A program made the translations under genes and the position numbers. The notes beneath the pieces were generated by a model. It did no database searches, was not told the origin of the DNA, and was given only the letters and a program-made list of their open reading frames with translations. Shown piece after piece: positions 19,105 to 21,802 of a DNA stretch of 64,000 nucleotides; the first letter of the stretch is position 1; each line of letters begins with the position of its first letter. The stretch covers positions 682,001-746,000 of the forward strand of contig NZ_JARVWQ010000002.1 in the NCBI RefSeq assembly GCF_029846255.1. Direction: 5' to 3'. The stretch comes from Amnibacterium sp. CER49. Its GTDB lineage: Bacteria > Actinomycetota > Actinomycetes > Actinomycetales > Microbacteriaceae.

Positions 19105-19761
19105 ATGGTCGGCGTCGACACGGCCCCGCGACGAGCGGGCCTCGGCAGCCTCGGTGCGGTGCTCGTGCCGAGCGCCCTGTCCGCGCGCCTGCCGGACCAC
19201 CCGGACGCCGCCAGGGCCTTCCGCTCCGCGCGCCATCGGTTCCTCGCCGGCGAGCGCATCGACATGGGCGCGCTGGCGGCCGAGCTCGGCGTCGATCGCA
19301 CCTCCCTCTTCCGCTGGGTCGGCAACCGCGACGCCCTCCTCGCCGAGGTGCTGTGGTCCCTCGCCGTGCCCACGTTCGACGCGACCGAGGGCGCCGTCGA
19401 CGCGACCGGCGCCGACCGGGTCGAGCAGGTGCTCATCCGCGTCGTCAGCGACCTCATCGCCGCGGACTACTTCCGCGACTGGATCACCCGCGAGCCCGGG
19501 CGGGCGCTGCGCATCCTCACCACGCGGTCGAGCCCGGTGCAGCGACGGTTCATCGCGGTCACCGAGCGGCTGCTCCACGAGGAGCTCGACGCCGGCCGCA
19601 TGGCGACGCCGCTGCCCGTCCACGACCTCGCCTACGTGCTCGTGCGCGTCGTCGAGTCCTTCACCTACGCCGACGTCATCGCCGGCGAGCCTCCGAGCGC
19701 CGAGCGGGCGGCCGCGGCGCTCGCGCTCGTCCTCGCACCGACGCGGGAGGCGGCGGCATGA
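19105..19761 (+). CDS. TetR-family transcriptional regulator (QsdR-like)
   Basis: 218 aa from ATG at 19105; an upstream in-frame ATG at 19042 would add 21 residues that look non-conserved. The helix-turn-helix is at residues ~55-85: GALAAELGVDRTSLFRWVGN, then RDALLAEVL. The rest is an all-helical ligand-binding domain. The 101-base gap to the divergent acyl-CoA dehydrogenase start is the expected operator site, though no clean palindrome was found there. It is followed by a thioesterase remnant (ATGA overlap) and an acyl-CoA ligase gene. It probably senses an acyl-CoA or related pathway metabolite; ligand unknown. Confidence 0.85.
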   Translation: MVGVDTAPRRAGLGSLGAVLVPSALSARLPDHPDAARAFRSARHRFLAGERIDMGALAAELGVDRTSLFRWVGNRDALLAEVLWSLAVPTFDATEGAVDATGADRVEQVLIRVVSDLIAADYFRDWITREPGRALRILTTRSSPVQRRFIAVTERLLHEELDAGRMATPLPVHDLAYVLVRVVESFTYADVIAGEPPSAERAAAALALVLAPTREAAA

Positions 19762-20207
19762 GCGACGCGACCGAGACGCTCGAGCGCTACCGCTGGACGC
19801 GGCCGTTCCCCACGCGCTGGCACGACATCGACGTCTTCGGTCACGTGAACAACACGATCTACTACGCGAGTGGCCGCTCGGGCGGAGGCGATTTCTCGCC
19901 TCCGCGCGGCCAGCTCGCCGAGGGCCGTCTCGGCGCTCGCTCGACGCGCAGCCATGCCTTGCCACCGGAGACCGCGCGCAGGTCCGATCACGGTCTCGCT
20001 CTCCGTCCGATCCTCGCCGGGCGCCTCCCTGCGCCGCACCAGTCGGCTCGCCTGACCCTGACGAGACATGCTCACGCGTACCCCGGGGCCGGGTCGGCCC
20101 CGGGCGAGCTGAGCGCGCGGAGGCCAGAGACGGCCTCCGCTTCACGCGCTCACTCGCATATCGAGCGAGAGCTCGCCCTCCCCGAACCCGAGAAGGACCT
20201 CACGTGA
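19758..20207 (+). pseudogene. Broken hotdog (4HBT) acyl-CoA thioesterase gene, 3' part replaced
   Basis: ATG at 19758 overlaps the TetR stop. The first ~37 residues (ERYRWTRPFPTRWHDIDVFG then HVNNTIYYA) are a clear 4-hydroxybenzoyl-CoA thioesterase start with the Asp of WHDIDVFGHVN. From about base 19870 the similarity stops: the remaining ~110 codons (SGRSGGGDFSPPRGQ ... EPEKDLT) are Arg/Ser/Pro/Ala-rich with no hotdog features and derive from the palindrome-flanked segment at 19882-20157. The frame stays open and ends at TGA 20205-20207, overlapping the next gene's GTG. The chimeric 149-aa product would lack most of the fold and is almost certainly inactive as a thioesterase. Confidence 0.75.
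19882..20157. repeat. Palindrome-bracketed segment inside the thioesterase remnant (candidate miniature mobile element or structured RNA)
   Basis: Two 24-nt hairpins share identical outer arms GCGGAGGC and GCCTCCGC. They are 19882-19905 (10-bp stem; loop TTTC on plus, GAAA on minus) and 20117-20140 (9-bp stem, loop AGAGAC). The second sits in an extended stem, GCGAG at 20104-20108 with CTCGC at 20153-20157 and GAGCGC at 20111-20116 with GCGCTC at 20146-20151. Between them is CCCGGGGCC / GGCCCCGGG (20082-20104). It has no transposase gene. A minus-strand frame of more than 60 codons crosses the segment. Its nature is inference. Confidence 0.55.
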
Positions 20208-21802
20208 ACGACGACGTTCTCCGCAGCTCCGGCAACGCCACCCTCTCGGTGGCCTCGATCCTCGCGGACGCCGCGTGGCGGTACCCCGACGCCACCGCCG
20301 TCATCTGGGCGGGCCAGACCGGTCCCGAGTCCCGCGTCACGTACGGCGACCTGTGGACGCAGACGAAGGCGATCGCGGGGGTGCTCCGCGACCGCGGCAT
20401 CGGCCCCGGCGACCGCGTGGCGATGCTGGTGCCGAACGTGCCGATGTTCCCGAGGGTCTACTACGCGGTGCTGTCGCTCGGCGCCGTCGTCGTGCCGATC
20501 CACCTGCTGTTCAAGAACGAGGAGGTGCAGCACGTCCTCCGAGACAGCGGCGCGAAGCTCGCGGTCATCGCCGCGCCCTCGCTCGGGGAGGCGCTGCCCG
20601 CGGCCGCCGCGACCGGCGTCGACGCGATCTCGGTGCTGCTGCCGGAGGCCACCCGCGACCTCGTGCCGATCCCCCGCCTCGAGGACCTCGTCGCGTCCGG
20701 GGAGTCGGCGCCGATCGAGCGGCACGTCGCCACGAACCCGCTCGCCCCCGCGACCCTGCTCTACACGTCCGGCACGACCGGCACACCCAAGGGCGCGGTC
20801 GCGAGCCACCTCGCCATCGTCGAGAACGTGAACGTGTCGCTGCTCGACTCGTTCGACATGCACCACGACGACGTGGTCTTCGGCGGCCTGCCGCTGTTCC
20901 ACACGTTCGGCCAGACCTGCGTGCTCAACACCGCGTTCCGCCGCGGCGCGACCATCGTGCTGCTGCCGAAGTTCGAGCCGGTCGCGGCGCTGAACGCGAT
21001 GGTCGAGCACCGCGTGGACATCTTCACCGCGGTGCCGACGATGTACGTCGCGCTGCTCCAGGCGGCGGCCGCGGGTGCGCCGACCCCGCAGCTGCGCTAC
21101 GCGATCTCGGGCGGCGCCCCGCTGCCGCTCGCCGTGCTCGAGGCGTTCGAGGAGACGTTCGGCGCCTCGGTGCACGAGGGCTACGGCCTCACCGAGACCT
21201 CACCGGTCGTGTCGTTCAACCGCGTCGGCGAGGAGATCCACCCGGGCACGATCGGCCGGCGCATCTGGGGGGTCGATGTCGAGATCGCCGACGCGGACCG
21301 CGAGGACGCGATCGTCGTGCTCCCCCGGGGCGAGATCGGCGAGCTCGTGGTGCGCGGCCACAACCTCTTCACCGGGTACCTCGGCAAGCCGGACGCGACC
21401 GCGGCCGTCGTGGTCGACGGCTGGTTCCGCACCGGCGACCTCGCGACGATGGACGAGGACGACCTCATCACGATCGTCGACCGCAAGAAGGACATGATCC
21501 TGCGCAACGGCTACAACGTGTACCCGACGGAGGTCGAGAACGTGCTCGTGCGGCACGAGGCGGTGCAGACCGCAGCCGTGTTCGGGGTGCCGCACGAGGT
21601 GCACGGACAGGAGATCGCCGCGGCCGTGGTGCTGAAGCAGGGCGCGCAGGCCACCGAGCAGGAGATCATCGACTTCGTCAAGGAGCGGATCGCCGCCTAC
21701 AAGTTCCCGCGCGTCGTGCACTTCGTGCCGGAGCTGCCGCTCGGGCCGTCCGGCAAGGTGCTGAAGCGCGAGCTCACCCGCGAGTTCTCGCCGCAGTCCT
21801 GA
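20204..21802 (+). CDS. Long-chain fatty-acid-CoA ligase / AMP-dependent acyl-CoA synthetase
   Basis: 532 aa, GTG at 20204 with GAGAAGGA just upstream. All adenylating-enzyme motifs are seen: LLYTSGTTGTPKGA (P-loop, residues ~186-199), GYGLTETSP (A5), GWFRTGDLATMDEDD and DRKKDMIL (A7/A8 hinge), and PSGKVLKREL with the catalytic Lys near the C-terminus. It activates a carboxylic acid with ATP to an acyl-AMP and then to acyl-CoA. As the only ligase in the cluster it probably primes the substrate for the acyl-CoA dehydrogenase, MaoC, SDR and thiolase. Specificity (fatty, aromatic or terpenoid acid) cannot be read. Confidence 0.93.
   Translation: MNDDVLRSSGNATLSVASILADAAWRYPDATAVIWAGQTGPESRVTYGDLWTQTKAIAGVLRDRGIGPGDRVAMLVPNVPMFPRVYYAVLSLGAVVVPIHLLFKNEEVQHVLRDSGAKLAVIAAPSLGEALPAAAATGVDAISVLLPEATRDLVPIPRLEDLVASGESAPIERHVATNPLAPATLLYTSGTTGTPKGAVASHLAIVENVNVSLLDSFDMHHDDVVFGGLPLFHTFGQTCVLNTAFRRGATIVLLPKFEPVAALNAMVEHRVDIFTAVPTMYVALLQAAAAGAPTPQLRYAISGGAPLPLAVLEAFEETFGASVHEGYGLTETSPVVSFNRVGEEIHPGTIGRRIWGVDVEIADADREDAIVVLPRGEIGELVVRGHNLFTGYLGKPDATAAVVVDGWFRTGDLATMDEDDLITIVDRKKDMILRNGYNVYPTEVENVLVRHEAVQTAAVFGVPHEVHGQEIAAAVVLKQGAQATEQEIIDFVKERIAAYKFPRVVHFVPELPLGPSGKVLKRELTREFSPQS

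Follow-up and report, generated by a model that had tools for sequence, protein, structure and literature searches.

The window, a 64,000-nucleotide stretch of the genome of Amnibacterium sp. CER49 (contig NZ_JARVWQ010000002.1, positions 682,001 to 746,000 of the forward strand), contains three consecutive plus-strand frames: a TetR-type regulator (19105..19761 in window coordinates; TetR_C_36 by Pfam), an open frame of 149 codons carrying the remnant of a 4HBT thioesterase (19758..20207), and an AMP-binding acyl-CoA ligase (20204..21802; Pfam). The TetR stop and the thioesterase start share an ATGA overlap, and the GTG start of the ligase overlaps the stop of the chimeric frame. An earlier note on this DNA had described the middle frame as opening like a 4HBT thioesterase before similarity stops, with the frame staying open throughout, and both observations held. 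The only Pfam match above cut-off in the 149-residue protein is to a thioesterase family at residues 15-36 (PF20791); Pfam detected no complete hot-dog domain, and none beyond residue 36. Alignment with the intact genes of five congeners delimits a surviving thioesterase 5' part of 36 codons (19758..19865, plus strand), and the match to the thioesterase of congener G005 has 74% identity over residues 1-38. The thioesterase orthologue of congener G004 covers positions 2-120 of the 122 in PF13279.

The surviving codons are followed by a composite insert of 292 bp (19866..20157), in which two inverted copies of a repeated element surround a core and whose edges coincide with the end of the element family (model position 3). 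The left copy (19866..19940, plus strand) is matched by the family model R1 at 19864-19941 with 69.8 bits (E 5.7e-8), and the right, inverted copy (20082..20157, minus strand) at 20081-20159 with 77.1 bits (E 3.9e-9). Each copy contains a hairpin A, located by pattern search and from the sequence (19882..19905, plus strand, and 20117..20140, minus strand), and a hairpin B, recognized from the sequence and the fit to the model (19917..19934, plus strand, where it is degenerate, and 20082..20104, minus strand). The two A hairpins are the pair of 24-nt hairpins with identical arms seen in the earlier note, and their positions and identical 8-nt arms were confirmed; the pattern GCGGAGGCN{2,12}GCCTCCGC occurs at three sites in the 3.36-Mb genome, two of which are these hairpins. 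A search of the segment against its own genome matched its two ends to each other as inverted repeats (72 bp, 77%, E 1.6e-7) and showed the left end recurring in the genome, for example at C2:54505 (70 bp at 86%). The core of about 140 bp (19941..20081) had no second copy in its own genome and no full-length match in the 60 genomes searched, and was thus single-copy within that search; it gave one weak match, of 51 bp at 80%, in congener G001 (L014). Several further matches of the segment (e.g. L010-L013) looked like chance coding similarity and were left out, and a search of window positions 19600-20400 against Rfam gave no match at E<=1. A 149-residue chimera conserved as a unit was rejected, there being no match to the full segment outside the focal genome among the 60 genomes; the relatives carry ordinary thioesterases, and the segment is repeated at its ends.

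Alignment with the relatives that keep an intact thioesterase placed the left junction at 19866-19868, where congener homology ends and where the element reads GCG and the codon in the gene is GCC or GCG. Other copies define where the element ends across the family; this end lies at 19866 on the left side and at 20157 on the right, and the intervening 292 bp are absent from the aligned congeners. The right junction is inferred: from 20158 onward the sequence resembles, by eye, the thioesterase tail and ligase ribosome-binding site of G004, and positions 20158..20203 (plus strand) are a short, probable remnant of these, with a codon-position GC of 0.81/0.31/0.81 that is coding-like over only 16 codons. 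The insert itself, at 0.75/0.72/0.78, has no codon periodicity, as compared with 0.71/0.44/0.98 for the ligase. The earlier statement that the remaining 330 bases are unrelated to the thioesterase therefore stands for the 292-bp segment and probably fails for about 20158-20203. With the right edge so placed, about 100 thioesterase codons have been replaced by 292 bp. The overlap with the ligase start had also been thought to be kept, but in five congeners the thioesterase ends short of the ligase start and the two are separated by a gap that has its own ribosome-binding site, and the GTGA overlap is, judging from sequence comparison, new here and not inherited. When the segment is shuffled by mononucleotide, the relevant frame stays free of stops in 31% of cases, so that the open frame across the insert is close to chance expectation. 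Selection for translational coupling between TetR and the ligase is possible, because congener G006 too keeps a frame between these two genes.

The TetR gene was found in all six Amnibacterium congeners (G001-G006), and in five of them (G001-G005) an intact thioesterase of 147-166 residues separates it from the ligase, a conserved order on which the large rearrangement offered earlier as an alternative was rejected. In G006, tblastn found no thioesterase between TetR and the ligase, and a 23-codon frame is read there by eye (L092, from about 3607); this is a plain in-frame deletion of the thioesterase that leaves a 23-codon leader. The tree of TetR and ligase groups the focal genome (G000) with G004 and G006 as (G000,(G004,G006)), with support of 0.88 and 1.00, and because G004, which lies beside G006, is intact, two independent losses, one in G000 and one in G006, are the simplest reading. 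A congener thioesterase searched against the focal genome matched over residues 1-38 at the focal locus and gave two weak matches (E 0.034 and 2.43); the missing middle of the protein was not found elsewhere in the genome by these searches, which otherwise returned paralogues and weak matches, and relocation of the 3' piece was rejected on the same results. Inversion of the thioesterase middle between the repeats was likewise rejected, as the segment has no significant thioesterase similarity on either strand (best tblastn match to thioesterase genes, E 0.013, antisense, over 15 residues). The thioesterase is very probably dead, and the pseudogene illustrates the damaging side of the element: the same gene was lost with the element here and by plain deletion in a sister species.

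Fourteen copies from four genomes were aligned as a seed and then modelled (R1). The element consists of two adjacent hairpins, A and B, with 9-bp stems and loops of about 5-6 nt. Across 66 matches to the model, 97.7% of 1166 cells in the two 9-pair helices are paired, changed cells comprise 187 two-sided versus 12 one-sided changes, and none of 500 shuffles scored as high on any of five measures. The alignment of 66 matches was fitted to the structure; in the unfitted seed alignment 97.6% of cells are paired, with 26 two-sided versus 0 one-sided changes, and shuffles scored as high in 0/500 cases on four measures and in 24/500 on the fifth. So few one-sided changes suggest that pairing is maintained in the DNA itself or through copying between arms. 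The end and duplication statistics rest on the first 47 of the 66 rows, less one at a contig edge; these 46 copies are the better-scoring ones, from genomes chosen for many matches. Among them, information climbs from at most 0.4 bits outside the boundary to 1.85 bits at both ends, and 44 of the 46 copies are exactly 77 bp long, so that the element is a discrete, sharply bounded unit. Its consensus has no T-run. In alignment A2, the C at model position 8 and the G of GACGCC (before CCAG) switch jointly to G and C (GACCCC) in many copies; these positions are not partners in hairpins A or B, and they might form an additional pairing or mark a binding site in two parts. A described structured RNA family was rejected: Rfam gave no above-threshold match at window positions 19600-20400 or at seven element loci. 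The latter yielded only sub-threshold matches, among them RNaseP_nuc (E 0.37) and a single one over an element, sX12 (E 0.084), whose 29.3 bits lie far below the gathering score of 106.

The model detected 15 copies in the focal genome at E<=0.01 and 16 at E<=1. At least one copy was present in 35 of 150 Microbacteriaceae genomes, the focal one included, spanning 24 of 85 genera, in a survey that used stricter filters and scored 31 candidates per genome, so that high counts are lower bounds; none of 23 genomes from other families of the same order carried the element. Among the congeners, G004 has nine copies, G005 and G006 one each, and G001-G003 none. The 14 non-focal loci of the focal genome have one model match each; two share flanks with a G004 copy, nine share only the element with the congener loci examined, and three match none. 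This comparison fits turnover of element positions, G004 being fragmented and the absence of shared positions accordingly weak. Carriage by a plasmid or phage was rejected, one 80-base copy being unmatched and one hairpin pattern having no exact match in viral contigs. Some copies are arranged unusually. Two genomes of the same genus contain three tandem copies with a 68-bp period (G086:C1:96891-97103 and G154:C1:216887-217099), and a copy in the focal genome lies at the very start of a contig (C2:5-84), perhaps where assembly stopped. Three pairs in G015:C1 (22260/3475107, 48141/3500990 and 51005/3503855) are separated by a constant distance of about 3.4528 Mb, which suggests overlapping contig ends and a slightly inflated copy count.

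Most of the copies examined lie between genes, with a minority inside them. A GC-based gene caller, given 57 of the 66 matches (nine secondary matches were omitted), placed the A side toward a gene 3' end in 34/57 copies and the B side in 28/57; the caller is crude and misread some frames, including that of the focal locus, and these counts are indicative only. In the 1-kb flanks of 10 of the 14 non-focal loci, a family scan of 15 open reading frames matched 14 to families, including NusG, WhiA, Sod, ribonucleotide reductase and AroB/AroQ-type and Dxs-type enzymes, and one to none; a transposase adjoining the copies was rejected, as none of these 15 frames encodes one. In G153, two copies flank genes resembling ribosomal proteins (L197:1001-2069), which we take from their translations to be uS11 and uS13.

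Three of the intragenic copies coincide with additional stretches of protein. The HrpA helicase gene of the focal genome carries an in-frame copy (G000:C1:1968095-1968175; L166:1001-1081) at which there are 41 residues versus six in the best solved homologue, the Lhr-type helicase of G015 has 30 residues at the element (L205:1001-1080) versus one in the best solved chain, and rhamnulokinase of G153 has 33 residues (L211:1001-1080) versus eight, a second kinase aligning with a 17-residue gap at the element. The solved homologues are distant, and the extra stretches in all three proteins could be partly older. The Lhr and rhamnulokinase peptides are similar (ALELK..AISGL.RDASA), since both genes read the element in one and the same frame; a copy in an error-prone DNA polymerase of G134 (L180:1001-1080) is read in that frame too and encodes a similar peptide, while the HrpA copy is read in a different one. 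A second copy in Lhr of G015 (L205:414-493) is antisense, opposite to the first and 508 bp from it, within one open frame. The L180 and L205:414 copies, and an antisense copy in an acyl-CoA ligase (L189), are open in frame, with no added stretch demonstrated for these three against homologues. At four further loci (L179, L194, L206 and L212) a variable codon of the frame used in Lhr and rhamnulokinase is TGA, and a coding-like open frame ends there in ALEL-stop.

We looked for traces of a mobilizing mechanism. Direct repeats of 1-9 bases flanking the 46 single copies were not above shuffles, so the target-site duplications sought after the earlier note did not appear; without them there is no direct view of the insertion event itself. 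Such a lack of duplication would be more in keeping with a single-strand (HUH-like) or recombination-based route than with a DDE transposase. The Y1/RAYT transposase domain (PF01797, E<=0.001) was found in none of 28 genomes, comprising 14 with the element, high-copy genomes among them, and 14 with none listed, and the same search was positive in 5 of 14 control genomes. The focal locus provides the one direct case of presence versus absence, and the target there also lost about 300 bp, unlike a simple insertion.

What is observed is a thioesterase truncated at a composite that has element-defined edges and is absent from sister species. We consider it likely that the pseudogene arose through local replacement of the gene by a composite of a non-autonomous palindromic mobile element of the REP or Rickettsia palindromic element (RPE) kind. 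Because its edges are the element's own ends, the composite most likely came in as a single unit, or else as two copies accompanied by loss of target DNA. The element is probably copied by a hairpin-dependent route. The thioesterase would have been expendable and its loss thereby tolerated, with the downstream ligase keeping its ribosome-binding site. The earlier suggestion of a miniature inserted element with two inverted palindromic units is supported: a dispersed 77-bp family exists whose end defines the insert edges, and the family appears to act like a non-autonomous mobile palindrome. More tentatively, with the balance tipped slightly against, it may be a kind of mobile DNA in Microbacteriaceae that has so far gone undescribed, namely a double hairpin of 77 bp that spreads with neither a recognizable Y1/RAYT enzyme nor target-site duplication, lengthens working proteins by about 25-35 residues or supplies a new C-terminus (the ALEL-stop), and forms inverted pairs that act as larger composites replacing target DNA.

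Several other explanations were weighed against replacement by a mobile composite. In a true REPIN, two inverted REPs are mobilised by a host RAYT (Y1) transposase. Membership in a dispersed family and an inverted pair whose outer ends are the unit edges would agree with this, as would the lack of target-site duplication in the element copies, since none is expected of Y1 enzymes; however, PF01797 was missing from 28/28 genomes in a search with positive controls, at 15 the copy number of this genome is low, and each of its other 14 loci is a single match. The REPIN raised by the earlier note, taken in the strict sense, whose unit is not a double hairpin as it is here, is therefore largely refuted and very improbable. 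The 77-bp units might instead be selected terminators or other 3'-end RNA elements spread by recombination, the focal pair being a captured intergenic fragment. Strong pairing of the stems and the positions by gene 3' ends would also suit a terminator, and the focal pair has its A sides outward, as between two convergent genes, so that for the intergenic copies a terminator role is a serious rival. On the other hand, the in-frame copies in HrpA, Lhr and rhamnulokinase would be harmful as terminators, the 77-bp ends are sharp and fixed although stem sequences vary, the consensus lacks a T-run, and the 12 one-sided versus 187 two-sided changes suggest pairing at the DNA rather than the RNA level. 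As an account of the family and the focal locus, we judge it unlikely.

Alternatively, two single copies may have inserted independently in opposite orientations, the stretch between them being the decayed remainder of the thioesterase. Where they meet the gene, both copies do stop precisely at the element edge, and Lhr of G015 provides another inverted pair within one frame, but it is hard to see in this reading why the segment has no significant thioesterase similarity on either strand when the adjacent 36 codons are well kept, and we regard it as rather doubtful. That the 149-residue chimera is a functional new protein is very hard to credit. Its frame is open, its ATGA and GTGA overlaps would couple translation of TetR, chimera and ligase, and G006 likewise retains a short open frame there; against this, the hot-dog domain ends at residue 36, the insert lacks codon periodicity, shuffled segments often stay open, and the chimera was not seen outside the focal genome among the 60 genomes. 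Similarly remote is an assembly artefact, in spite of palindromes being hard to sequence and the copy at the start of contig C2, as the insert edges match the element end, the flanks are colinear with the congeners, the genome is in two contigs with a completeness of 100, and a unique 140-bp core is not expected of an artefact.

The best-known palindromes inserted in frame are those of Rickettsia and Wolbachia, which have been discussed as a source of new protein segments. The passages of PMC3767692 and PMC10969869 that deal with RPEs describe repeats of about 100-150 bp in these two genera, some of them in frame within genes. The likeness of our family to RPEs is one of behaviour: its palindromes occur between genes and in frame inside conserved genes (HrpA, Lhr and rhamnulokinase), and unrelated proteins share a similar encoded peptide. 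It differs from them in its GC-rich Microbacteriaceae hosts, its length of 77 bp versus the 100-150 bp or so given in that part of PMC3767692, its two adjacent hairpins and the minority of examined copies that lie within genes. If the proposal is correct, the family would be an independent actinobacterial counterpart of the protein-coding palindromes of Rickettsia, and its sharp ends, strict pairing and lack of a recognised transposase would make it suitable for asking, independently of Rickettsia, by what route such elements move and if the peptides they add are neutral. Like MITEs, the element is small and non-autonomous, has inverted units at both ends of the focal composite and can inactivate genes; unlike them, it gave no target-site duplication in the 46 single copies, and no parent transposon was identified.

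The 77-bp repeat family is apparently undescribed, RPEs and REPs being its closest analogues: the top-ranked matches of a search of open-access journal papers contain no description of it. Some actinobacteria are credited with putative REPs in a RepRanger survey (PMC12306157), whose main text has neither the word Microbacterium nor the word Clavibacter. Dispersed palindromes, often by gene 3' ends, with occasional inverted pairs and intragenic copies, are shared with the REPs and REPINs described by Di Nocera et al. 2013 (PMC3733652), who report intragenic REPs in several species. Two REP superfamilies, GTAG and CGTC, are treated there, and CGTC elements are placed in five phyla, Actinobacteria not among them, a word that does not occur in the main text of that paper. 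The family differs from REPINs in that no RAYT/Y1 enzyme was found in the 28 genomes, and, of the inverted pairs that would be the replicating unit of a REPIN, there is one at the focal locus and a wider one in G015, the other 14 loci of the focal genome being single. The GTAG and CGTC REPs are defined in the same paper as single hairpins of 20-40 bp with an unpaired GTAG or CGTC at one end (PMC3733652), whereas the element here is a 77-bp double hairpin; a CGTC does occur on the reverse strand near hairpin A (in GGCGTCGCGG), at a position that does not adjoin the stem.
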